The notes below the pieces were generated by a model. The model searched no databases. It was given only the letters and a program-made list of their open reading frames with translations, and was not told where the DNA came from. Of a stretch of 64,000 nucleotides of DNA, positions 36,758 through 50,923 are shown piece after piece. Source of the DNA: Bdellovibrio sp. ZAP7 (lineage in GTDB: Bacteria; Bdellovibrionota; Bdellovibrionia; Bdellovibrionales; Bdellovibrionaceae); NCBI RefSeq assembly GCF_006874645.1, contig NZ_CP030082.1, positions 1,612,001 through 1,676,000 on the forward strand. Direction: 5' to 3'. Position 1 is the first letter of the stretch, and each line of letters opens with the position of its first letter. The translations under genes and the position numbers were made by a program.

Positions 36758-39700
36758 TCAATGTGCACTTGCTGGAGCTCTTTGAGGGCTTTGTGCTTTT
36801 AAAAGCAATTGCAAGGACTCATTTTGTTTTTTGAGAAGTTCATTTTGTTCACGAATCACAGCAAGCTCTGCTTCGACCTTCGTTAAACGCTCCTCTTGAG
36901 AAGCGAATTTTGCGGTGAACTCCTTGTAAAGATCTTTAATGGCATTGACGACGGCCCAGTGAATCGGATCCACATTCAATTCTAGATATCCATCTTTACG
37001 TGTTGTGACGGCATCGGGAATTACTTTTTGAACTTCTTGCGCAATGAAGCCCGTCTTTTGGAAATCAGAGGGCAGTTGCAGAGGATTATCTTTTTTGTAG
37101 GAATAGCGGACAGTGTGAAGCTTCAATACTTCGTTTAAGCCGTATTCATAATCTCCGTGAATGTCTTTAAGGCGGGCATCGGAAGCATTGGTCCAAGCTG
37201 TTCCGGTCGACAAACCCGCCGTGCCGACGACATGCAATCTGTAAGAGGGGCTCGTTGTCCCCATGCCGACATAACCTGTTGTGCGGGCAATGGAGATTCC
37301 TGGTACTTCAGTCCCCCCACTGAGCATTGTTAAGTCCAAGGTGTTATTCGTACTTTGATAGCGAACGATGGCACCGTTTTCGATCGCATCTTCCGTTAGT
37401 TTAATAGTGGGGCCGATGACATCGTTACTAGCGCTTTGTATTCTCATGGTCGGGTTCGTCGCTCCATATAGATCAAAGAGATAACTTGGAGTTGTTCCGA
37501 TACCAACCAGGCCGCCCGCAGTAATTCTGACGCGCTCAATAGCATTCGTGCCGGCATCAGGACGAGTGGCTAATGACATATCCGATCCGCGATTGTTAGC
37601 GGTTGTAGTTGAAGTCGACATAGAAATGAACCCCGCGCGGCGGATGCTCGTGTTATTAGCACTATCAAGCCATTCGATATTTCCCAGGTTTACACCTAAG
37701 GCATCGGACGCATTTGAAGTTAATTGCAGATTTCCGGAGCCATTGGCAGCAGTCGTTGCCGTACCTTTCAGAGTCAGATAATTTCTGCCCGAGTAGAGGG
37801 AATCCATACCTGGAGAACTCGTACCAATGCCGACATCCCCATATTCATTGATACGCATGCGTTCGGTGAGGGTGTTGGTGTTGAAAGTATCGCCCACAGT
37901 ATCGCCAATCGCCGTGTAGAAAACCATTTGGCCGCTGGATTCCCCGTGGGCAGTGCCGTGATCTTTTCCGACTTTAACAGCGATACGTCCCTGTGGATTT
38001 GAGGGGTTGGTCGTGTTGCCATCAAACATCGCGAAGTCAACGCTCACGGCAGAAAGATCATTAACGTCTGTAGTTGCGCCATTGTTTCCGGATTTTAAAT
38101 AAAGTGCCGTTGTATTTCCAGAGACATCAGGCCCCGTGATTTGGAATAAAGGAACGCCATTGGTAAATGTACCAACGTTCAAGACATATTTAGAAGCATC
38201 AAAATTCATGGCTAAAGGTGCGGCACCCGTATCGTCATAAGAATTGAGGTAAAGGCCACTTGACCCTTGTATATAAAGGTCGCCGCGATAACGGGTTGTT
38301 TGACTGCGCAATCTTAAATTAGCAGTCGTTCCATTGTCAGAGCCGTTGTCGACCGTGAGTTTTTGGGCAGGCGAAGCCGTGCCGATACCGACGTTACCGC
38401 TGCTTGTGTATATCGGTGAATTCGCTAGGGTCGCACTGGCACTGTAAAAAGGGATATACCCTGTAGTGCCTGAGCCAGAGAGCGTTCCCGAAGGCAAATC
38501 AGCTAAAACCAAAGATCTAAATGTCGGAGTCGCCGTCGAATTTGTTGGTCCTGCAAATACTAAGTTCGCAGATTGCGACGCAAAGTTAGAACCTGTGATC
38601 GCGATTGTCGTACATACGAATGAGTCCGAAGCTGAACTCCAAATGACGGCTTGGCCTGCCGAGCAAGTTGTTGATGGCCAAGGACTGACGGAAGATGAGT
38701 TCAAAAGATCCGTATATGTTAGTTTAGTCGCCAACCAAGCAGCACCACTCCATCTTAAAGTTTGGCCTGTTGCCGAACCATTGGAAATAGAGATAACTGG
38801 AGTGGAAGTTCCCGTTGCGACACTTAAAGGAGCCGAAGCCGTCACGCTTGTGACAGTTCCATTGGTTGGAGTCACCCATTTCAAGCCACTGGTCTGAGCG
38901 CTATCCGCGGTTAAGACTTGTCCATCGGTTCCCACAGCCAAGCGCACATTATTAGTGCCATCGCGAGTGATTAAATCACCTTTGGTTGTTACCGGGCTGA
39001 GGGCATTGAAGCCTGCCGTGTTCGTACTTTGTCCTGTACCACCTTTAGTAATCGGCACCACAGCAGACAAATTTGCAGGTGATATATTAGTTAAGGCCGA
39101 ACCATCGACGGCAGGAAGTTTTGCTGAAGAATCCAATTGAACGATTTGGCTTGCACCAGTTCCAACGTTGACTGCCAAGGTGACTGTTCCCGATGTTCCT
39201 CCACCAGTTAAGCCTGTGCTTGCTGTCACTCCGGTGATGGTGCCTGAATTCGAGGAGTCTGCAGCCGGGGCCCACTTTGTGCCATTGTATTTTAAGACCT
39301 GCCCCGTGGTTGGTGCCGTCGTGTCGACGCTGACACCTTTAATTTTATCTACGGAGGTGGTGCTTTGGGTGCCACTCACATCTCCGCTTAAGGACCCCGT
39401 AAATCCCGCCGCATTTCCAGAAATATTGCCACTGATTTTTGCCGCAGATATTGTTCCAGAAATTTGCGACTCTGTGATTGAAATCGTATAACAATCAAAT
39501 TTATTTGCCGGGGTTATAAACGACAACGACTGACCGGCAGTACAAGTTGTTGGGAACATCGTTGAATCAACTTTATTTGAGAGCTGAGTACTTAATCCTG
39601 AAATATCAGAGATTGCTAAAGTCGCTGCCAACCAGGCACTACTGCCATCGTATCGTAGTACTTGCCCTGATGTCGGCGCTGTTGAGCTGACATTGACACC

Positions 39701-40438
39701 TTGAATTTTCGTTGCGTTGCCAAAGCGTGAGTCGTTACCGGCAGCCACAGTTCCCGCGGCTGTGCCTATGCTGATTCCGATGACCGGAATAGAGCTTGTC
39801 CCAGATTTCGTCAGAGGCGATGTCACGTTAACGTCACTGACTGTGCCGCTGCCTCCGGAGTCATTTTGACAAGAGAATGTTGAACCGTCATAGGTCAAAT
39901 ATTGACCGAGTGTACAAGTGGCTACATTCGTTTTCAAAACGAAATCTGTTGGTAAGTTATTTCCCAATCGAGCGGAGGAATAAGAAAATGTGGCAAAGGG
40001 CACTGAGCGAATTTCTGAACTTGGTGTGATGGCATTCCAGCCATTGCCGTCGTGGAATTGAACTTTCAGAAGCCGTGTTTCATTTTCAGCGGCAGTATAG
40101 GTGCCGCCTCCGGCGCAATCTAAAGCCACGGAGTTTTTAAACGCATCACGAATATCAGCGGTGGGACCGGTAGGAAAAAGGCGGGTGCCGACACCGATTG
40201 GAACGTCAAAGACACCTTTCGTTCCTTGCATATTCACGTGATCTTTTTGCTCGCGATAGAATACGCAATTTCCAGTGGCATTTGTAATTTCAAAGGCAAA
40301 GCTTACGTTATTGTATTCAAGGGGGTTGCCATCAGAACGAAGAATTCGTCCCTGATAGTTAAATGAATCTGGAGAGGCAGACGCAATGCTGCCTACAAAG
40401 GAAATCAAAATGAGAATTAAGGACGTACATGATCTCAT
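36758..40438 (-). CDS. Exported trimeric fibre protein with C-terminal S74 intramolecular chaperone (MAT-like adhesin candidate)
   Basis: 1226 residues from an ATG that gives a signal peptide cut near IASA; the longer frame from 40489 has no added signal. The N-terminal FNYQGRIL segment and long Gly/Ser/Thr-rich repeats follow. Two repeat units are easy to see (KIQGVNVSSTAPTSGQVL and KIKGVSVDTTAPTTGQVL). The middle resembles phage tail-fibre shafts. The last 141 residues are an S74 domain with the self-cleaving Ser1086-Asp1087 in NASDARLKD. This matches the published MAT fibres of Bdellovibrio that bind prey surfaces. Prey contact is inferred from family resemblance. Confidence 0.88.
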   Translation of the reverse strand: MRSCTSLILILISFVGSIASASPDSFNYQGRILRSDGNPLEYNNVSFAFEITNATGNCVFYREQKDHVNMQGTKGVFDVPIGVGTRLFPTGPTADIRDAFKNSVALDCAGGGTYTAAENETRLLKVQFHDGNGWNAITPSSEIRSVPFATFSYSSARLGNNLPTDFVLKTNVATCTLGQYLTYDGSTFSCQNDSGGSGTVSDVNVTSPLTKSGTSSIPVIGISIGTAAGTVAAGNDSRFGNATKIQGVNVSSTAPTSGQVLRYDGSSAWLAATLAISDISGLSTQLSNKVDSTMFPTTCTAGQSLSFITPANKFDCYTISITESQISGTISAAKISGNISGNAAGFTGSLSGDVSGTQSTTSVDKIKGVSVDTTAPTTGQVLKYNGTKWAPAADSSNSGTITGVTASTGLTGGGTSGTVTLAVNVGTGASQIVQLDSSAKLPAVDGSALTNISPANLSAVVPITKGGTGQSTNTAGFNALSPVTTKGDLITRDGTNNVRLAVGTDGQVLTADSAQTSGLKWVTPTNGTVTSVTASAPLSVATGTSTPVISISNGSATGQTLRWSGAAWLATKLTYTDLLNSSSVSPWPSTTCSAGQAVIWSSASDSFVCTTIAITGSNFASQSANLVFAGPTNSTATPTFRSLVLADLPSGTLSGSGTTGYIPFYSASATLANSPIYTSSGNVGIGTASPAQKLTVDNGSDNGTTANLRLRSQTTRYRGDLYIQGSSGLYLNSYDDTGAAPLAMNFDASKYVLNVGTFTNGVPLFQITGPDVSGNTTALYLKSGNNGATTDVNDLSAVSVDFAMFDGNTTNPSNPQGRIAVKVGKDHGTAHGESSGQMVFYTAIGDTVGDTFNTNTLTERMRINEYGDVGIGTSSPGMDSLYSGRNYLTLKGTATTAANGSGNLQLTSNASDALGVNLGNIEWLDSANNTSIRRAGFISMSTSTTTANNRGSDMSLATRPDAGTNAIERVRITAGGLVGIGTTPSYLFDLYGATNPTMRIQSASNDVIGPTIKLTEDAIENGAIVRYQSTNNTLDLTMLSGGTEVPGISIARTTGYVGMGTTSPSYRLHVVGTAGLSTGTAWTNASDARLKDIHGDYEYGLNEVLKLHTVRYSYKKDNPLQLPSDFQKTGFIAQEVQKVIPDAVTTRKDGYLELNVDPIHWAVVNAIKDLYKEFTAKFASQEERLTKVEAELAVIREQNELLKKQNESLQLLLKAQSPQRAPASAH

Positions 40439-40515
40439 GTTAAATTCATCGGCGTGTTCGCTTGCGTTCCGTAGAATCCTATGGAACACGCGAGGAATAT
40501 TTCATAGATATAATC

Positions 40516-40564: not shown

Positions 40565-41827
40565 TTATTCTGCTGGGAGAAAATACTTTTTTAAAACCTG
40601 CTGCGTGGGTTCTTTTCCCAAAGGGGAGAACCCACCATTGATGGAAGTATCCGTGTCTTCATCAACCAAGACCTGCCAGACTCCGACACTTCTCATCCAG
40701 TCGCTTTGAGAATTCCACAGTGACATCAAAAGAGCATCCCAGGCTGCTGCTTGATGTTGATAGTTGATCGGCGTGTGACCGTCTTCATACAAATAGGGCG
40801 ATACAAAACATTTCTCGACACTGCGATAGCCGACTTCTTGAATGGCCAGATACTTTTCAGTGACGGCCGAGTGATTTATTTGTGTCAAAGCATTGCGCAG
40901 ATTCAGAGCGTACTGAAAAGAAAACGGTGTTAAAACTTTGATCAGGTCATCATAGCCTGCTGGATAGTCTTTGTCAGCCGCACCCAAAGCGCGATAGTAA
41001 TCGAGTCCTATGAAATCCAGAGTGTTCCAAAAATTACGAAGATATTGTTGATGGCGAATCTCGTCGTCGGTGCGCGCTGCAAAGGTCAGATCGTGGCGCC
41101 ACTGTTCAAACTCGCCACCCCAGGTTCGCACTCCATCTTCTAAAACATATTGATCCGTATAGTTCGCACCATAGGTCATTTTCACTCGCGGACCTAAGGC
41201 ATTCCGCGCACGGTAAGCCAGGTGCAACCAAAGATCGGGGCGGCCAAAGCGGCGTGGCGGATTGCGGCTGCCCAGTCCCGAGGTTAAGGAGTGCATCTCG
41301 GCTCCGATGGAATACCACGCGGCTTCGGTGCGCGCGGCGATTTTCATGTAGCGCTCGTGATATTCAAAAAAACTTTGAAACCATTTTTCAGGATCGTCTG
41401 GTTGAATCACTCCGTGCCACCACAAAGTTCCGTCTTCATCTTCATAGGGGAATTCTCCGTGGGGACCCACCACCAAAAGAATCGGGCGAAAGGCGATCTT
41501 AAGACCCAGGGATTTGGCATAATGGATGGTGGCTTCCAGGTGGTATTCTTCTTGTTGTTGCAGATCCTCGGGCACAACCGAACGGACGGTGTTGGATTTT
41601 CCACCCACCATCTTGCCGCGAAAATTAAATATCACGGTATCGACACCTAGATTTTTTATTTTATTTAAAAGGCGCTGCACCCTTTGACCTTGTGGCGTTT
41701 CGTCAACTCGAAATCCAGTGGGCCAATAGGTAATGATGTTCACCGCAGCTTCTCGTTCTGCGGAAGTGGCCTGGGCCGGGGACCAAAGCGTGGTCAGGAC
41801 AACAAGCAGGGGGAGTAAAACTCTCAT
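40565..41827 (-). CDS. Secreted glycosidase-like protein (GH113-like TIM barrel)
   Basis: 420 residues with a signal peptide cut near AQAT. The TIM-barrel order resembles GH113 beta-mannanases: AKSLGLKIAFRPI (strand 3), YSIGAEMHSL with Glu177 as a candidate acid/base, LDFIGLDYYRAL, and IQEVGYRS with Glu331 as a candidate nucleophile. The exact substrate is unknown, perhaps a mannan, glucan or glycan of the prey or of LPS. The assignment is by motif memory only. It is upstream of, and in the same direction as, the fibre gene, but separated by a palindrome. Confidence 0.7.
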   Translation of the reverse strand: MRVLLPLLVVLTTLWSPAQATSAEREAAVNIITYWPTGFRVDETPQGQRVQRLLNKIKNLGVDTVIFNFRGKMVGGKSNTVRSVVPEDLQQQEEYHLEATIHYAKSLGLKIAFRPILLVVGPHGEFPYEDEDGTLWWHGVIQPDDPEKWFQSFFEYHERYMKIAARTEAAWYSIGAEMHSLTSGLGSRNPPRRFGRPDLWLHLAYRARNALGPRVKMTYGANYTDQYVLEDGVRTWGGEFEQWRHDLTFAARTDDEIRHQQYLRNFWNTLDFIGLDYYRALGAADKDYPAGYDDLIKVLTPFSFQYALNLRNALTQINHSAVTEKYLAIQEVGYRSVEKCFVSPYLYEDGHTPINYQHQAAAWDALLMSLWNSQSDWMRSVGVWQVLVDEDTDTSINGGFSPLGKEPTQQVLKKYFLPAE

Positions 41828-41966: not shown

Positions 41967-42722
41967 ATGCCGATGCTCCTGATTTTGTTGTTTTCACTTT
42001 TGCCGAATACAAGTGGGGCTTCCTCGGTGGCTCCGCCGATGTATGAAAGTGTTTTATTTATCGGTGATGATCACGTTGCGGACGCTTTTGGAAATGCCGT
42101 TGATGCCTATCTTCGTACTATATCTATAGAGGTGAATACGATTGCGGAATGTGGATCTACTCCCGGAAATTGGGTTGGAGTCAGGACTGATTTCCAGTCA
42201 GCGAAATGTGGGTTCTGGCAGCGCGATGAAAAACGTCGCGAACGCAAAAGCAAAGAATTTAAACCCCGCTCGCTTTCTGAGGAGCTTGCAAAGGCAGATC
42301 CGGATCTGACCATTATCGCGCTGGGCACATACTTGCTAATGAATGAACGGGATATGCAAAACGAGCAATCCTCTGTAGAGAAAATGGTAAGTGAGGTCGA
42401 ACGGATTCAAAGTCGCTGTGTGTGGATTGGTCCTCCGCGACTTAGCAAAGAACCGTATGCTTCCAATTTGGATTCCGGGGTCAGGACCTTAAAAAAGATT
42501 CTCAGCAAGCTTCACTGTGATTTTATCGATAGTAGTAAGCTCACTCGATATAAAGGTAAAGACGGTCTTAAATATCAAGTGGCGGCGGCGACCCGTTGGG
42601 GGGCGCAAGTTTCAAGAGAGCTTGATAAATTAAACCGTCCTTCCCCTCAGGAAGAGCAGTCTTTGAATCTGGAACCTACTTTAACAAACCCCTCATCTCC
42701 CTCGGGAACAGCTCCGCGTTGA
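41967..42722 (+). CDS. Exported SGNH-like protein lacking the catalytic serine
   Basis: 251 residues with a signal peptide (cut near SGASS). The fold resembles SGNH/GDSL hydrolases: block I reads LFIGDDHV, where the family has GDSH, so Ser is replaced by Asp35. The block III position reads LGTYLL instead of GTND, and the block V region DGLKYQVAAATRWG has Lys where His is expected. All three catalytic positions look lost, so it is probably not an esterase. It may be a binding protein. The last 40 residues are a Pro/Ser/Glu-rich tail. The function is unknown. Confidence 0.6.
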   Translation: MPMLLILLFSLLPNTSGASSVAPPMYESVLFIGDDHVADAFGNAVDAYLRTISIEVNTIAECGSTPGNWVGVRTDFQSAKCGFWQRDEKRRERKSKEFKPRSLSEELAKADPDLTIIALGTYLLMNERDMQNEQSSVEKMVSEVERIQSRCVWIGPPRLSKEPYASNLDSGVRTLKKILSKLHCDFIDSSKLTRYKGKDGLKYQVAAATRWGAQVSRELDKLNRPSPQEEQSLNLEPTLTNPSSPSGTAPR

Positions 42723-42994: not shown

Positions 42995-44275
42995 ATGCGA
43001 TTCTTACTATTACCACTTATTATTCTAGGGATGGGAACAGGGACTAACTCTGCGAACGCGCAAGTTAAACCGGTTGTCACAGCCGCAGATCCTTCCGCAA
43101 TGGAACTGAAAGCCAGAAAAATTTATGAACGTTTAACAGGAACTAAGCTTCCTGCTGACAGTCCCGTAGTTGCGCAGATGGTAACATTCTTGAATAAAGG
43201 AGATGTTGAAGGTGCCGCGAAAATTGCGACCGCTGACGACAATTTCTTAAATATCACAGTTAAGTTGATGGCGCTTAAGCTTTCAACACGTGATGAAACT
43301 ATCAAGACAGATTTGAACGACATGGTTGCTGCATTTATTGGTGTGACCCGTGACCAAAGAGATGCGCGCGAGTTGTTAAACGGGAACTTCTATTACAGAG
43401 GCGCTGACAATCTGACAGGTGTTCGCTCTAATCTGGTTGCAGATATCCTGCTGACTAATAACCATTATATCGACCTCGAAGATAAACGTGTGAATCTTGC
43501 AAAAAACCTGGTGCGTGTAAATGGTCAGGTCATTGCGGTAGGGGATGCAGCAACTGTTGCCAATCCTGATCCGGCAGGAGTTCTCACTTCTCGTGCCTTT
43601 CAATCAGCGCACACGGTGATGGGAACAAACCGTCGTTTGGTGGAATATACGTTTCGCGAATTTATGTGTGTGCCTTTAAGCGAGTGGGCTGATACGGGTG
43701 CATCTGATTTGCGCATCGGTCGTGACATTGACCGTTTTCCAGGTGGAGACCATAACAAGTTTCTGACTTCCTGTAAGGGCTGCCACACTGTTATGGACGG
43801 ATTCCGCGGTGCTTTTGCTAAATGGGAAGTGAACAATAACCCAGCGGGCATTAAACACGTAGATGCAAATCCTCATTCAAATACATCGGATGCATATACT
43901 ATCATCGTGGATAATTCGACGGGCGTAATCCAAAAGTATAACAAGAATGCAAACGTTTTCCCGGCTGGATATGTCACAAGAGATGATTCATGGGTGAACA
44001 ATGCAATTCGTGAGAAAAATGCCAACTTTTTCGAATGGCGCGGCAATGCTTTGTCAGGTAATGGTGCGAAAAGTTTTGGTACAACAGTCGCAAACTCCCG
44101 TCGCTTCAGTCAGTGTATGGCGAAACGAGCTTACGAAACTGTTTGTCGTAAGACTTTCGATGAAGCTAAAGACCTTGATAAGCTAAAAACTTGGGGTGTT
44201 GAGTTTGAAAACAGCGGTTACAAATTGAAAAGTTTGTTTGAAAAAGTCGCTGCTAAACCAGGCTGCTTGGAATAG
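42995..44275 (+). CDS. Exported protein with one c-type haem motif
   Basis: 426 residues from an ATG with a G-rich ribosome site; a TTG at 42956 extends the frame without a better signal. The signal peptide is cut near NSANA. A single haem-attachment site CKGCH lies at Cys260-His264. No other domain is recognised; the C-terminal half has two further Cys pairs (FSQCM and TVCRK). It is the first gene of a five- or six-gene plus-strand run of exported proteins. A redox or structural role in the envelope is inferred. Confidence 0.75.
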   Translation: MRFLLLPLIILGMGTGTNSANAQVKPVVTAADPSAMELKARKIYERLTGTKLPADSPVVAQMVTFLNKGDVEGAAKIATADDNFLNITVKLMALKLSTRDETIKTDLNDMVAAFIGVTRDQRDARELLNGNFYYRGADNLTGVRSNLVADILLTNNHYIDLEDKRVNLAKNLVRVNGQVIAVGDAATVANPDPAGVLTSRAFQSAHTVMGTNRRLVEYTFREFMCVPLSEWADTGASDLRIGRDIDRFPGGDHNKFLTSCKGCHTVMDGFRGAFAKWEVNNNPAGIKHVDANPHSNTSDAYTIIVDNSTGVIQKYNKNANVFPAGYVTRDDSWVNNAIREKNANFFEWRGNALSGNGAKSFGTTVANSRRFSQCMAKRAYETVCRKTFDEAKDLDKLKTWGVEFENSGYKLKSLFEKVAAKPGCLE

Positions 44276-44287
44276 TCGGAGGACGTC

Positions 44288-44956
44288 ATGAATAAGAAAT
44301 ATACTAAGTTTTTATTTTATGTTCTGCCTTCAATGTTTTTTGTGACCGTTAGTTTTAATAACTGCGGTCGTTATGGAGAAATGCAGGGGGCGTCTGACCT
44401 GTCCTCGACAAGCTCTAGTGGTACTGCGACAGAATCAACAGACTCAGAAGCTCTTGGCATGCCCTATGCGCTTTTGTCGGCAGAACAGACTTTTGAATCG
44501 ATGTTAAGAGTTGCCAACGTATCAACAGTCAGTGCGGCTCTCTCTACAGAATATGCAAATCGTTATGGCGCTTTGGCTGCAGGCAATGACCTTACTATGG
44601 CTAACGGTCCATTAATGCTAAGTGCAACAAGTTTAGGTGGTGAGGTTTGCAATTCAGTTCTTGCCACAGAAAAAGCGGAAGCCGCTGGCTCGCGTGATTT
44701 CTTTAATAGTATCAACTTCGCTGCAGGTGTGTCTTCAATGACGGATGCTCAGTTCAACGCCAGTGTGCGAGGTATGGCCCGATCTTATTGGGGGCGTAAC
44801 GAAACAGCTGAGGAACTGGCATTGCTTCAAACTTTTAAAAGTGAATTTATAGCAGCTTTGGCGGCGAATGCTCGCACTCAAGCTGCGTCGACTAGCAATT
44901 TGATGCTGGCGACTTGTGCGGCGATGATTTCAAGCTTCGACGCACTTTCTTACTAA
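44288..44956 (+). CDS. Exported lipoprotein-like protein with FNNCG motif
   Basis: 222 residues. An N-terminal hydrophobic segment (FLFYVLPSMFFVTV) runs into SFNNCGRYGE, which looks like a lipidation site but has Asn at -1 and -2 where a normal lipobox has Gly/Ala/Ser and a small residue. A Ser/Thr linker follows. The rest is helical and Ala-rich, with two Cys. It starts 12 bp after the haem protein stop with GGAGG before the ATG, and ends 41 bp before the DUF1501-like gene. No family is recognised. Confidence 0.7.
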   Translation: MNKKYTKFLFYVLPSMFFVTVSFNNCGRYGEMQGASDLSSTSSSGTATESTDSEALGMPYALLSAEQTFESMLRVANVSTVSAALSTEYANRYGALAAGNDLTMANGPLMLSATSLGGEVCNSVLATEKAEAAGSRDFFNSINFAAGVSSMTDAQFNASVRGMARSYWGRNETAEELALLQTFKSEFIAALAANARTQAASTSNLMLATCAAMISSFDALSY

Positions 44957-44997
44957 TTTTGTTTTTGATTTTTAGGTTTAGTTCTCTGGGGGAGAAT

Positions 44998-46401
44998 ATG
45001 GCAAAAGATAAAAAAGAAATCCCGTTTTGGGCAGCTACCGGTCACAAAAAGCCAGTTACTCGCCGCGATTTCCTTTCTGCGGGAATCATACCCTTCGCTG
45101 CGAACTTGTTCGTACCGAATTGGGTATCGATGATTTTGGGCAATCAGGCTCATGCAGCGAATGACTGTCCTGTTCCTTTGTCATTAATTCCGATGGTAAC
45201 TGTAAATCTAAGCGGCGGGGCTGCCATGGCGGCAAACTATGTCCCGCAGAATGCAGCTCGCCAACCCCTTGCTTCATACAACAAGATGGGCCTAGGTAAT
45301 AATCAAGTACCTATTGAACGAGCTTTCGGAAATGCGCCTTTTGCGGGTAATGGCATTAGTAAGTTTTTGACTGGGGTTAAATCCAAAGCGTCAGCTGGTA
45401 CCATGGGCAAGACAGCTTTTATCGGATTTTGCGTCGATTCTCAAAACGATACGAATCAGAATAAATTTGATGTGTCCGGTGCAGTAACTAAGGCGGGATT
45501 GGTGGGAACTAATCTGCCAAACATCGGTAATCGTAACACTCGCACGGGGATGAATCAGTCGGCGGGATTTGCAGTGCCACCGGCACCCTTGATTGTGCAA
45601 AACTATTCAGCGTTGTTGTCTTCAATCGGCTATACGGCCTCATTGTCGACGGCTTTGAATGCCAATCAAAAGAACTCATTGGTAAAGCTGATGAGTAATT
45701 TAACTCAGACTCAATCTCGTAAAATAGCGACATTAGATGGTGGAGAAACTGTAAAAACGGTTTTGGATTGCGCTGGAATTAAAAACGTGGATGTGATGGC
45801 GAAGGGCGCTTCGATCGTAGATCCGCGTTCGAATGCGACATTCGCAAATGTTTGGGGTGTTACCGCTAATACCGCTAACAATAATCGCGAACTTTTATTC
45901 GGATCCATGATTTATAATACTTTATTGGGACAAGCAGGTTCTGCAAACATTGAGCTTGGTGGTTATGATTACCATGATGGATCCCGCACGACCGGAGATA
46001 CCAGAGATCTTGATGCCGGTACTGAAGTGGGGCGCATTCTTGAGAGCGCTTCTGTATTGGGCAAACCGGTTATGATCATGGTGGTTTCCGACGGTTCAGT
46101 TTATAGTAATGCCTCCGACGATCGCGCTGCCGGATGGGCGGGAGATCGTGGGCATGGCGTTGCATACCTGTTTTACTTCGATCCTAAAGGCCGTCCTGCG
46201 ACAAGCGATTTCCAAGTGGGTCAATTCAACGACAATCAAGCTTCGGATCCAACGTTTGTAACTGGTTCGAATCCTGAATTGGTTGCGGCAGCAGTATTTG
46301 CTAATTGGTGCCAGGCCAATAAGCGAATGGATCTATTTGATAAAGTTGCGAATCGTATTTTAGATACGTCTCAGCTTTCTCAGGTGATCAAGGTCGCCTA
46401 A
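44998..46401 (+). CDS. DUF1501-like protein with a Tat signal
   Basis: 467 residues from an ATG with GGGGAG upstream; a longer frame from 44914 lies inside the preceding gene. The N-terminus carries a twin-arginine motif (Arg22-Arg23 in TRRDFLSAG) and a signal peptide ending near AHA. The body resembles DUF1501 (sulfatase-related phosphatase fold) with the late conserved stretches MIMVVSDG and GDRGHGVAYLF. DUF1501 proteins in other phyla are often paired with haem-motif exported proteins. Tat export implies folding or cofactor loading in the cytosol. Activity unknown. Confidence 0.78.
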   Translation: MAKDKKEIPFWAATGHKKPVTRRDFLSAGIIPFAANLFVPNWVSMILGNQAHAANDCPVPLSLIPMVTVNLSGGAAMAANYVPQNAARQPLASYNKMGLGNNQVPIERAFGNAPFAGNGISKFLTGVKSKASAGTMGKTAFIGFCVDSQNDTNQNKFDVSGAVTKAGLVGTNLPNIGNRNTRTGMNQSAGFAVPPAPLIVQNYSALLSSIGYTASLSTALNANQKNSLVKLMSNLTQTQSRKIATLDGGETVKTVLDCAGIKNVDVMAKGASIVDPRSNATFANVWGVTANTANNNRELLFGSMIYNTLLGQAGSANIELGGYDYHDGSRTTGDTRDLDAGTEVGRILESASVLGKPVMIMVVSDGSVYSNASDDRAAGWAGDRGHGVAYLFYFDPKGRPATSDFQVGQFNDNQASDPTFVTGSNPELVAAAVFANWCQANKRMDLFDKVANRILDTSQLSQVIKVA

Positions 46402-46496
46402 TTTTTTTGCTTCTGCAATGCGGAAGCGATTTGTCGCCTGCTGGGGAGTGAGCGATAAATAGTTAATTGCGTGTTTGTATGTGTTTGGGGGAATGA

Positions 46497-47669
46497 GTGG
46501 GAAGCTCTAAAGTTGTTCAAAAAATTCTCTGGGCCGTTGGCGCTGTCATCACAGTTATTGCTTTTAATAACTGCGGTGAGGGATTCACTATGACAAACCT
46601 TAGCTCTGTATCCGGTGGCAGCACCGAGTTTTCTACAGCTGGCGGGGAGTCTTGTGAAGAGGCGATTGTTAAGGTCTATGCCGCAACTTTCCATCCGTTC
46701 TTAAATCAAACTTGCGGCGGATGTCATGTGTCCGGTGGTATAGGTCTGGGAGTTTTTGGTAGCCCCGATTTGGTGCCGTCATATGCCGCTTTCTCCAGCG
46801 TGGGGGCCGCGAAAATTTCAAGTCAGGCCGTGAATGGTTCTCATAAACCTCCGTATACAGGTCCACAAAACCAAGCTCGCATTACGGAGATTAATTCCTA
46901 TTGGGGTGCTGCTCAGGATAAGTATGCTCAATGTTTGGTTGATACGGGTCAGGCTCAAGTTTCTGCAAAAGTTAAATCTGCAGCACTTAAAGTTCCTGCA
47001 AACCTTGCTACAACATTCGTAACGATGACATGGGATTTGGCAGGTGCAACTCCATCGGCTCCGTTAACTGCGACAATTGATATTCGTCGAGCTGTGATCG
47101 GTGGTGTGACTCAAGGGTATGAGTTTAGAAATCCAACTTTGCGTCTGAAAAATGTTTCTTCGGGAAGTTACCAAGTCAACACAGTGAATCTTTACGTCAA
47201 CATGGCGAAAGCGGTCGAGGCGACAACATATCAAAACGTGTCTGCGGTAATTTCTACGACTACAGCCACGAATCTTTCTGCGGGCACGGCAAATGCCATT
47301 GTTGTCATGACTCCAAATGCGAATGATGTGATTGCCTTGGAATACGAAACTTTGAAATCGACGACAGCAACGGCTCCAACGCCGACTCCAACAGCAACGG
47401 CGACTGCTACCGCAACACCAACAAACGTGACTTATTCACAGTTGATTGCCGCAGGCGGAGTGTTTGCGAATAGCTGTGTGAGTTGTCATAGCTCAAGCAA
47501 TGCGCGTGGTGGATTGGATTTGACAAAATATGCGAGCGCGAAAACAGCCGCCGCAAATATTCAAGCGCGTATGAATAACTCCAATAATCCGATGCCAACC
47601 AGTGGTATTCTCTCTGAAGCTCAACGTACGATGGTGGACGTCTGGGTTGCTAACGGTGCTCCTCAGTAA
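46497..47669 (+). CDS. Exported two-haem-motif lipoprotein with FNNCG motif
   Basis: 390 residues from a GTG with GGGGG 6 bases upstream (an ATG at 46493 is out of frame). The N-terminal anchor is followed by IAFNNCGEG, the same unusual motif as the gene at 44288. Haem sites CGGCH (Cys73-His77) and CVSCH (Cys327-His331) bracket a beta-rich middle domain and a Thr/Pro/Ala linker with repeated TAT. The last 60 residues look like a cytochrome c fold with a Met in NNPMPTS as possible axial ligand. It is likely an outer-membrane-associated redox lipoprotein. Confidence 0.8.
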   Translation: MGSSKVVQKILWAVGAVITVIAFNNCGEGFTMTNLSSVSGGSTEFSTAGGESCEEAIVKVYAATFHPFLNQTCGGCHVSGGIGLGVFGSPDLVPSYAAFSSVGAAKISSQAVNGSHKPPYTGPQNQARITEINSYWGAAQDKYAQCLVDTGQAQVSAKVKSAALKVPANLATTFVTMTWDLAGATPSAPLTATIDIRRAVIGGVTQGYEFRNPTLRLKNVSSGSYQVNTVNLYVNMAKAVEATTYQNVSAVISTTTATNLSAGTANAIVVMTPNANDVIALEYETLKSTTATAPTPTPTATATATATPTNVTYSQLIAAGGVFANSCVSCHSSSNARGGLDLTKYASAKTAAANIQARMNNSNNPMPTSGILSEAQRTMVDVWVANGAPQ

Positions 47670-47780
47670 GGAGCGCCGCAAAAACTCCGAGCATTTGTAA
47701 GCTTTTTGATTTGCGCCTCATTCGTTGGAACCATAGACTTAAACACGAAATAAGTCTTGTCCATCAAATGAGGTTGCAGC

Positions 47781-48953
47781 GTGATTTTACTTCTTCCATT
47801 TTTGCTTCTTGCAGGACTAATAATTCCACAAGTCAGCCAAGCGTATCCGGATTTTATTTCTTACGGGTACAACACATGCATTACATGCCATTATAATGGG
47901 CAGGGTAACGGTCCTCTGACTGATTACGGTCGCGCTCTTTTCACGACGGAGATCGCCGCTCGCGATCTGGTATTCAATAAAAAATTATCCGAGGAAGAAA
48001 TCGCTGCTAAATCGGGTTTTTTGGGTTCGACTCAATTGCCATGGTGGATTCGTCCAGGTATCAAATATCGCGGTCTATACTTTCAGCAAAATCCCGGCGG
48101 ACCTGCCGCAGTTACAAAATATATCACGATGCAGGCGGACGCCAACGTCGCCGTTCAATTTGATCGTGGCGCGAAATACTTGATGGTTTTATCTGGTGGT
48201 TATCAGCCAACTCCGGCAGCTCGTGCCAACATCAATGATCCTGACAATAAAAACTTTATCTCCCGCGAACACTACTTCCGTTGGCAGGTAAATAAGAAAT
48301 TCTACACGTACGTAGGAACGATGGATAAAGTCTTCGGTATTCGCACCGCTGACCATACGTCTTACAGTCGTTTGGTGACGGATGTTGCTCAAAATGACCA
48401 ATCCACAGGCGTGATCACGCAATACTACGGCGACAATTGGGAAATCACGGGAGATCTCTTTATTGGTAACGTCTTGCAGGAAGATGAGGACGTTCGTCAA
48501 AAAGGTCTTTCTGTGATGATGGAATTTGACGTAGCAGACAAGAACCGTTTGGGTTTCGCAGTTATGCAGTCAAAAAATGATTACGTGGAAAAGACTCGCT
48601 TGGAATTCCATCAAAAGCTCGGCTTTGAAAAAGGCGACAGTCTGTTGACTGAGGTGGGGTTCGTGAAAGACAGCCCTCTGGCAAATCCAAGTGACAAGGT
48701 CGGTGGCTATTTCATGTTGCAAAGCTTACTGGGGATCACACGTGGTTATAATATTCTCAGTCAAATTGAGTATTACAATGCCACAATGTCATCAGAGTCA
48801 GCCGATGAATTTAAATGGTCTTTCGGTCTTTTGGCCTTCCCGATGCCGCGTGTGGAATTCCGCGCAGGTTTCGTAAATGGTCGCAAATTAAATGATACAT
48901 CTGTGAATGCGGATGCTTGGATGTTGCAGTCACAACTGCATCTGTCCCTGTAG
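47781..48953 (+). CDS. Outer-membrane barrel with an N-terminal c-type haem motif
   Basis: 390 residues from a GTG with a GAGG ribosome site. The signal peptide is cut near SQAY. Right after it is a haem site CITCH (Cys33-His37) in YNTCITCHYNGQGNGPLTDYG. The remainder alternates polar and hydrophobic residues as in a beta-barrel and ends LHLSL, close to a barrel-terminal strand. A barrel with its own haem is reminiscent of porin-cytochrome electron conduits, though not homologous by any motif that I can see. It is 9 bp upstream of another barrel gene. Confidence 0.75.
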   Translation: MILLLPFLLLAGLIIPQVSQAYPDFISYGYNTCITCHYNGQGNGPLTDYGRALFTTEIAARDLVFNKKLSEEEIAAKSGFLGSTQLPWWIRPGIKYRGLYFQQNPGGPAAVTKYITMQADANVAVQFDRGAKYLMVLSGGYQPTPAARANINDPDNKNFISREHYFRWQVNKKFYTYVGTMDKVFGIRTADHTSYSRLVTDVAQNDQSTGVITQYYGDNWEITGDLFIGNVLQEDEDVRQKGLSVMMEFDVADKNRLGFAVMQSKNDYVEKTRLEFHQKLGFEKGDSLLTEVGFVKDSPLANPSDKVGGYFMLQSLLGITRGYNILSQIEYYNATMSSESADEFKWSFGLLAFPMPRVEFRAGFVNGRKLNDTSVNADAWMLQSQLHLSL

Positions 48954-48962
48954 GAGGCGTAC

Positions 48963-49592
48963 GTGAAACAGCTTTTGATTATCTTTTCGATCGTTTTACT
49001 GTCAGCTTCTGGTTGGGCTCAGAAAAATGGAGCGCCGACAAAATCCGTTGCTACTGCAGCGCCGACTACGGCACCTCGTGCATTGGAGCGTTGGTTGTTA
49101 ACAGGCGAATACAACTCCTGGGTTGAGAAGCTTTCTATTTCCAATAACTCCGGAAGCACTCAAGACGCGAAAGCGTCGTACTATGGTTTCGGCGTGGGAG
49201 TAGAAAAAAACTTTTACTATTCCAAATGGGGTTGGGGAGTTGGTGGTGGAATCTCTGGTGGCAGCGCCGTCGGTGGAGACAAAAATACCGGCCTTAATTA
49301 TTTCCAAGCCCGCGTGCCTTGGACCGCCCTGCGTATCACTCCCCGAATATTCTATCGCATGGGGCCGAAAGTAGATTTGGGATTCGATATCTCGTCCTAT
49401 TTCAAAAACGTGGATTGGCCGACGGGTGCAAGCGGCGATCTGACCGTGCAGTCGGGGTCAAAAATGATCTCCGGCGGTTTCTTAGATTTAAGAGCGCGCG
49501 TAGGGCAGTCCTTCGAATACATCCAAAGCTTCGGAATGGTTTATAAGGATGAGACGATGTATTGGCGTGTAGGTTTGGCCTACCGATTGTAG
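48963..49592 (+). CDS. Small outer-membrane barrel-like protein
   Basis: 209 residues from a GTG with GGAGG 5 bases upstream. The signal peptide is cut near GWAQ. After a Thr/Ala/Pro linker, residues 45-209 show paired aromatic strands, and the chain ends in YWRVGLAYRL, a typical barrel C-terminus. There is no haem motif. It starts 9 bp after the haem-barrel gene, so the two are co-transcribed. Function unknown; it may be a small pore or a partner of the larger barrel. Confidence 0.7.
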   Translation: MKQLLIIFSIVLLSASGWAQKNGAPTKSVATAAPTTAPRALERWLLTGEYNSWVEKLSISNNSGSTQDAKASYYGFGVGVEKNFYYSKWGWGVGGGISGGSAVGGDKNTGLNYFQARVPWTALRITPRIFYRMGPKVDLGFDISSYFKNVDWPTGASGDLTVQSGSKMISGGFLDLRARVGQSFEYIQSFGMVYKDETMYWRVGLAYRL

Positions 49593-49716
49593 GGGTTGAT
49601 GAAAATGGCCCGATCGACTTCGTTGTCGGGCTATCTCCTCGCTCCGACGGGCATTTAGCCCGCCTGCGCTGCGGGGATAACCCTCCGCCTCGCGCTCGAA
49701 CCATTTTGATCAACCC
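49592..49716. repeat. Second palindromic non-coding element
   Basis: Inverted ends GGGGTTGATGAAAATGG (49592-49608) and CCATTTTGATCAACCC (49701-49716) match at about 15 of 16-17 positions. Between them are GC-rich inverted segments, for example ATGGCCCGA with TCGGGCTAT and CGACGGGC with GCCCG. It begins at the last base of the barrel gene stop. It differs in sequence from the element at 25011 but has the same plan: inverted ends, GC-rich hairpins, a position between convergent genes. Confidence 0.5.
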
Positions 49717-49778
49717 TGTTTTGCATTTTGAGACGGGGATGGATACGGGTTCGGGGACGTGGGGTAGATATTAGACAT

Positions 49779-49808
49779 AAAAAAAGCCTGGTTTTTACCA
49801 GGCTTTTT
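49779..49808 (+). terminator. Bidirectional terminator
   Basis: AAAAAAGCCTGG and CCAGGCTTTTTT form a 12-bp stem around TTTTTA. It serves the barrel operon on the plus strand and the convergent cytochrome gene on the minus strand. Confidence 0.9.
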
Positions 49809-50213
49809 TTATTGGATGTTTAGGATCCAGGTTTCTAGAGTTTGCAGTTGGTCGGAGGTGAGGTTGCCTCCAGAGGGTGGCATGTTTCCGGCGATACCTG
49901 TGCTGTTGCCAGCAATTTTCGTGTAAAGCTGAGAGCCTGAAAGGCTTCCTGGGGTCACCAGGTTTTGCGCTATGAATTGAGCTTCAGAGATATTGCCCCA
50001 AGTTTGATGGCTTGCTTGAGTGTGGCAAGTCGCACAGTGGTCGCGCAAGATCGTTTGAGCTGCCTGGAAAGCTGGCGTTCCGCCGCCACCCTCACCGTAA
50101 ATATCAGCATCATAACTGGATGAATTGTAGGCTTTGCCACAGCTCAATGGAGTTAAAAGGGCCAGGCCCAATATAGCGGAAAGTACCAGTTTTGTAGTCG
50201 TTCTAAGTCCCAT
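49809..50213 (-). CDS. Single-haem c-type cytochrome-like lipoprotein
   Basis: 134 residues. The lipobox is TPLSC near residue 25. A haem site CATCH lies at Cys60-His64, and GNMPPSGGNLTSDQ gives a Met axial-ligand candidate, the usual layout of a small cytochrome c. It would sit in the outer membrane or periplasm and carry electrons. It faces the haem-barrel cluster tail to tail, so it may be functionally related although transcribed separately. Confidence 0.82.
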   Translation of the reverse strand: MGLRTTTKLVLSAILGLALLTPLSCGKAYNSSSYDADIYGEGGGGTPAFQAAQTILRDHCATCHTQASHQTWGNISEAQFIAQNLVTPGSLSGSQLYTKIAGNSTGIAGNMPPSGGNLTSDQLQTLETWILNIQ

Positions 50214-50841: not shown

Positions 50842-50923
50842 TGGTGCGGGTGGAGGGACTTGAACCCCCATGCTTTCGCGGAAGATTTTGAATCTTCTGT
50901 GTCTACCATTTCACCACACCCGC
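50842..50923 (-). tRNA. tRNA-Leu (anticodon CAA)
   Basis: An 82-base cloverleaf with a long variable arm, as in Leu tRNAs. Acceptor GCGGGTG pairs with CACCCGC, with discriminator A and encoded CCA. The anticodon stem is GAAGA/TCTTC and the loop TTCAAAA gives CAA, reading TTG codons. The T arm is built from GGGGGTTCAAGTCCCTC. Confidence 0.93.

Follow-up and report, generated by a model that had tools for sequence, protein, structure and literature searches.

Electron conduits of the MtrCAB type use about ten haems in a row. The neighbour families of the PSCyt2 and PSCyt3 cytochromes are, as we take it, DUF1501 and DUF1552, and canonical PSCyt3 proteins have the domain order DUF1587-DUF1595-DUF1592-DUF1588-DUF1585. 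PSCyt cytochromes have been described in Planctomycetes, Verrucomicrobia and others as paired with two neighbour families, the function of which is undescribed (PMC5615132). A DUF1800-DUF1501 pair has been reported together with a chitin synthase, again with no function described (PMC5122149), and TfcP of Myxococcus, a cytochrome c with His/Cys ligation, stabilizes its partner PilY1 (PMC8833165).

Judged by sequence profiles and predicted structures, the core of the locus analysed here represents the PSCyt3 plus DUF1501/DUF1552 pairing in a Bdellovibrionota form, lying beside a predicted barrel module. Two of its proteins, A and T, share with that pairing a haem motif in a DUF1588-like setting, a DUF1585-like C terminus and an adjacent Tat protein of the AlkP fold. 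Protein A is much shorter than canonical PSCyt3, which also occurs in this phylum and genome; it scores below the Pfam cut-offs and lacks the N-terminal half in its own chain, a part that protein B perhaps supplies. The locus differs further from the pairing in its extra two-haem lipoprotein and its barrel module. Like MtrCAB and other porin–cytochrome conduits it has a barrel, here a predicted one, beside cytochrome lipoproteins, but it has no multihaem cytochrome and carries one haem in the barrel itself.

The author of an earlier note on this DNA knew of no described system with this set. That holds for the set as a whole, which is not described in the literature found, but not for A and T, which are remote members of the PSCyt3/DUF1501-DUF1552-type pairing. 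A partial literature search returned no paper on the Bdellovibrionota form, its lipoprotein partners or the link with a haem-bearing barrel. Planctomycetes and Verrucomicrobia have very many PSCyt-DUF1501/DUF1552 pairs, which other bacteria have as well, and the compact Bdellovibrio set offers a place to learn what these families do: it is small and conserved, it has named helpers and it occurs in a genetically tractable genus, which makes the question of function testable.

Layout of the cluster and its haem motifs

The window (the whole 64-kb stretch of DNA that was analysed) comes from a complete genome of 4.12 Mb, the nearest recovered relatives of which are Bdellovibrio. As the earlier note had it, seven genes for exported proteins are grouped at 42995-50213, and all seven ORFs are present:

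A, 42995-44275, plus strand: 426-aa protein with a Sec-type signal and a CKGCH motif
B, 44288-44956, plus strand: 222-aa protein with an FNNC lipobox and no haem motif
T, 44998-46401, plus strand: protein with the Tat motif TRRDFL
C, 46497-47669, plus strand: protein with an FNNC lipobox and two CXXCH motifs
D, 47781-48953, plus strand: protein with CITCH directly behind its signal peptide
E, 48963-49592, plus strand: smaller, barrel-like exported protein
131-bp repeated element, 49590-49720: between E and F, outside the protein system
F, 49809-50213, minus strand: protein with a canonical LSC lipobox and one CXXCH, convergent with E

The start codon of T is the ATG at 44998, not 44995. The gaps between the six plus-strand genes are just 9-111 bp. 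Promoter and terminator scans gave no signal above shuffled controls, and an Rfam scan found a tRNA at 50845-50923 and nothing else.

The four genes reported to carry CXXCH sites do so (one motif in A, two in C, one each in D and F; five in four proteins), and they are the sole carriers among the 53 non-overlapping ORFs of the window. Because shuffling within each protein gives chance probabilities of 0.00005-0.0016 and no other ORF of the 53 has the motif, the haem motifs are not due to chance. They are invariant in every aligned relative of A, D and F and in a 15-member alignment of C, and the genome has a cytochrome c assembly gene of the CcmF/CcsA type.

The FNNC lipoprotein signature was likewise found in B and C. 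This lipobox, F-[NQ]-N-C with Asn preceding Cys, is unusual; across the window (46572 in C, 44363 in B) and loci L048-L086 it occurs in 31 of 33 C proteins, in all 14 copies of f, the counterpart of F in a second system (lower-case letters denote its parts), and in 25 of 36 B proteins. In these loci, lipoproteins encoded farther away from the clusters usually carry Ala, Gly or Ser instead, and a few FQNC lipoproteins occur elsewhere in the genome. A genome-wide tally of F[QN]NC by DNA pattern was discarded as mostly noise, as 3 of 30 inspected hits were real lipoproteins.

Kinship of proteins A, T and B

Searches of all seven proteins against Pfam and NCBIfam put C alone above a cytochrome cut-off (PF13442, 2.1e-7), with F narrowly below it (PF13442, 6.6e-5). 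Window A has no Pfam family above the curated cut-off. Its family profile, however, aligns over 226 columns with the C-terminal half of Bdellovibrionota PSCyt3 proteins (HHalign 96.7%, E 4.4e-10, compared with E 0.27 for a reversed control). Among 32 A-family members, DUF1585 (PF07624) is detected in 20 and DUF1588 (PF07627) in 7, mostly below the gathering score, and the DUF1587/DUF1595 N-terminal half is absent from A. On these comparisons A is a remote, DUF1588/DUF1585-like PSCyt3 protein, predicted to be exported and to bind a single haem. PSD1/DUF1553 was considered as an ancestor of A or B and set aside, as it is nearly missing from the phylum (2 of 192 genomes). The predicted structure of A (pLDDT 89) found no match in a fold search of the PDB; phycobilisome linker domains were rejected as fold relatives (Z below 5, a common helical arrangement). 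Profiles of A and T gave no credible match in a PDB sequence search.

The haem site of A (C260-x-x-C263-H264) is invariant, and invariant cysteines around the site are common to A and PSCyt3, but neither alignment has a fully invariant His or Met besides the haem His. With TfcP as a precedent (PMC8833165), this pattern could indicate a structural haem, such that A, together with B, would serve T or an outer-membrane partner as chaperone or scaffold and would have no redox role. We regard this as rather unlikely. H157 (conserved in 88%) and H206 (81%), the best distal-ligand candidates in A, could still be ligands, and the linked proteins C and F keep candidate electron-transfer ligands that a purely structural role does not need.

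Some relatives (L056, L059, L060, L063, L075 and L080) have long forms of A, of 670-770 aa, with an extra N-terminal domain. In some of these the domain is LamG-like (PF13385, down to 2.1e-6), and a lectin domain of this kind hints at glycan binding. The long forms are often preceded by another FQNC or YQNC lipoprotein, of 625-725 aa.

Protein T had been called DUF1501-like in the earlier note. Fold and a weak profile comparison bear out the kinship, although no Pfam family scored: the PF07394 model matches 0 of 35 T-family members, and the T profile aligns with DUF1501 at 72% (E 3.4e-5), confined to 68 N-terminal columns. The AlphaFold model of T (pLDDT 77.7) gave, by VIA-align, a best fifty rows that all belong to the alkaline-phosphatase superfamily (Z 11.1-12.4, rmsd about 4 over about 220 residues) and 437 chains of that superfamily at Z 8 or more; the Foldseek E value is only about 5e-3. 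On the strength of this model and of its motifs, T is a Tat-exported protein of the alkaline-phosphatase-superfamily fold and a divergent DUF1501-like protein. It shares with DUF1501 (PF07394; compare the DUF1800-DUF1501 pairs) the Tat signal, a GG near the first strand, the GG[WY]D.H motif (GGYDYH in T) and the AlkP-superfamily fold, but in T, SDGS and DRG take the place of the DUF1501 motifs SEFGR and DHG.

Several residues are invariant in the T family: R22-R23 of the Tat motif (35 members), D324-Y-H326, D365-G366, D383 and D151, the last followed by Thr or Ser in 34 of 35. D151 and its neighbour may form a nucleophile site. By eye, with no coordinates used, N70 (Asn or Ser in the family) falls at the position of the first-strand Asp of the superfamily, and G366 and D383 at those of two metal-binding His residues. 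The standard two-metal ligands are thus partly lost, so activity is uncertain and a non-catalytic binding protein is conceivable.

The best fold matches of T include nucleotide pyrophosphatase/phosphodiesterases (NPP), the phosphoethanolamine transferases MCR-1 and EptA, and sulfatases. Together with D151, these matches lend themselves to a reading in which T is a working phospho- or sulpho-transferase or hydrolase on envelope lipids or glycans, EptA/MCR-1- or sulfatase-like, while the cytochromes have a separate task. The partial retention of metal ligands speaks against a working enzyme. A stays with T throughout, so that the haem accompanies the hydrolase fold, which is at odds with separate tasks; we find this combination doubtful.

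The alignment of lipoprotein B has two invariant Cys residues and an invariant Trp168. B has a homologue in the second system, lipoprotein b (HHalign 94%, E 1.4e-7). The match of B to the N-terminal half of PSCyt3 is weak (P 0.0016, probability 16%), and b has no match there; the top Pfam family for B is PSD5/DUF1595 (0.0052, in 2 of 27 members). B is possibly the DUF1587/DUF1595-like N-terminal half of PSCyt3, and our suggestion is that A and B may together be a split, order-swapped PSCyt3.

Gene order in relatives and further systems

The genes are not scattered in relatives, an outcome that would have refuted the reading in the earlier note. A-B-T-C is collinear in 31 of 37 T loci, and A lies upstream of T on the same strand, at 2-3.3 kb, in all 37. 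In the remaining six loci B or C was undetected by similarity to the window protein, and a haem lipoprotein or a small ORF often occupies the place. The order is thus kept across the order Bdellovibrionales, and D is strongly linked to T or to a DUF1501-type cousin. Among 60 relatives, T was detected in 34 and A in 36, and some genomes carry two sets. The pairwise-distance matrices of A, B, T and C correlate (r 0.92-0.96, 31 loci), a correlation that the shared ancestry of the genomes explains in part. As T is missing from about 9 of 23 members of the genus, the function is dispensable.

Searching GTDB genomes with the A profile yielded 69 loci, almost all of which carry the label of Bdellovibrionales or of relatives; Bdellovibrio bacteriovorus strain kdesi is among them. 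One contig (L181), from a metagenome-assembled genome labelled Streptomyces griseus, has a Bdellovibrionales-type A at 43% identity; the label is probably wrong.

A second system in the genome of the window, at 2760869-2768400 (L086), has D-E convergent with YceI-f-b-t-a and lies beside a GTP-cyclohydrolase-like gene. It shares homologous A, B, D, E and F parts with the window set, and its t belongs to the DUF1501 family (HHalign 97.9%, E 3.8e-13). Its a matches both PSCyt3 (98.2%, E 4.9e-14) and A (96.8%); unrelated parts compared as controls reached E values of 0.01-0.5. The second system differs from the window set in its order, a-t-b rather than A-B-T, in the added YceI and in having no C. 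In loci related to it, D-E and YceI are retained whether or not a-t-b is present, and f occurs in some of those that have D-E and YceI but no a-t-b.

Strong D homologues number 41 copies in the 60 genomes. A distance of 10 kb takes in T for 13 of them and t for another 14, and the remaining 14 lie near neither. The 27 copies near T or t compare with about 0.5 expected by chance (binomial P about 1e-42). E adjoins D in 14 of 14 D loci examined, and the cytochrome lipoproteins F and f have a conserved linkage with D. Because several genomes have D-E without A-B-T-C, we count the seven genes as two modules, A-B-T-C and D-E/F; the single set proposed earlier holds as a grouping at this locus and not as one unit. 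D-E stands in varying orientation and on either side of T, and it is therefore a separate unit that keeps company with the T and t systems.

That variability, and the 14 D-E copies that lack T or t (some of them on draft contigs), would also be expected if two unrelated modules were accidental neighbours in this lineage. We think this quite improbable, as two divergent systems share the link and many genomes show it. This recurrent link to a haem-bearing barrel is a specific new clue to the site of action.

A third set, at about 2.27 Mb, comprises a PSCyt3-type haem protein, a 199-aa protein and a DUF1501 protein. Another t homologue, with a and b, lies at 4079001-4093000 of the genome (L155), with no D-E in the 14 kb read.

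Predicted barrel module, possible roles and flanking sequence

From its sequence character, D is predicted to be an outer-membrane barrel with one haem site at its N terminus (CITCH, residues 33-37). Its family has 60% mean column identity and many invariant charged residues. E appears to be a second, smaller, barrel-like protein, and it ends in an outer-membrane-type terminal strand, RVGLAYRL. In C, a middle domain is flanked by two cytochrome c domains; both CXXCH motifs, H116 and M366 are invariant in 15 relatives, as are CXXCH and M111 of F in 15 relatives. H116 and M366 of C and M111 of F are therefore candidates for ordinary electron-transfer second ligands of haem.

The earlier note had suggested a path for electrons, or a haem-dependent modification, across the outer membrane. 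For the electron path, D, aided by C and F, would pass electrons to an outside acceptor in porin–cytochrome style. A haem-bearing barrel does adjoin haem lipoproteins, its linkage with F and f is conserved, and D has second-ligand candidates (H192 and M117 invariant, H387 nearly so). An electron wire is nevertheless unlikely because D, the only predicted spanning haem protein, has one haem within 37 residues of its N terminus. The five haems are spread over four proteins, with a maximum of two in each, far from the row in known conduits, and no multihaem cytochrome ORF was found in the window. We consider a conduit to be highly improbable. A haem-dependent modification by the set is possible.

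Our tentative proposal, which we favour over the alternatives but hold to be possible rather than probable, is that a haem protein and a phosphatase-fold protein form an enzyme pair whose substrate comes from the envelope or from prey, with C and F as electron carriers and D-E as the passage. A, B and T would form one envelope complex, as their gene linkage suggests, anchored at a membrane through the lipid of B and, in some relatives, through that of A as well. T would bind a charged substrate from the envelope or from prey, for instance a glycan or a phospho- or sulpho-ester, and the haem of A would carry out redox chemistry on it. C and F would exchange electrons with the respiratory chain, and D-E would move the substrate or product through the outer membrane. 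The single haem of D would lie on the periplasmic side and might serve as a docking or gating site and not as a wire.

A more specific version of this enzyme-pair proposal seems unlikely to us. In it, a split and reordered PSCyt3 (A and B), T and the two-haem lipoprotein would constitute a new class of redox enzyme, anchored in the outer membrane and acting through a haem-gated D-E on prey or surface polymers. If true, this would give the PSCyt and DUF1501 families their first function.

Upstream of the cluster on the minus strand, a repetitive exported protein of 1243 aa (36758-40489) has a C-terminal end that by eye resembles a peptidase S74-like intramolecular chaperone. A GH113-family protein (40565-41827, minus strand; 1.1e-14) and gene X (41967-42722, plus strand; a weak DUF459/SGNH-like match) adjoin the cluster. 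Both look lineage-specific and were excluded as parts of the system; X was recognized in only 3 loci among those examined.

The 131-bp element between E and F is a MITE/REP-like repeat, with inverted ends GGGTTGAT...ATCAACCC and copies at 19 places in the genome at 69-100% identity. Between the convergent genes, at 49780-49812, a hairpin with A- and T-runs, AAAAAAGCCTGGT TTTT ACCAGGCTTTTTTT, was seen by eye and is absent from the scan list; it is probably a two-way terminator.
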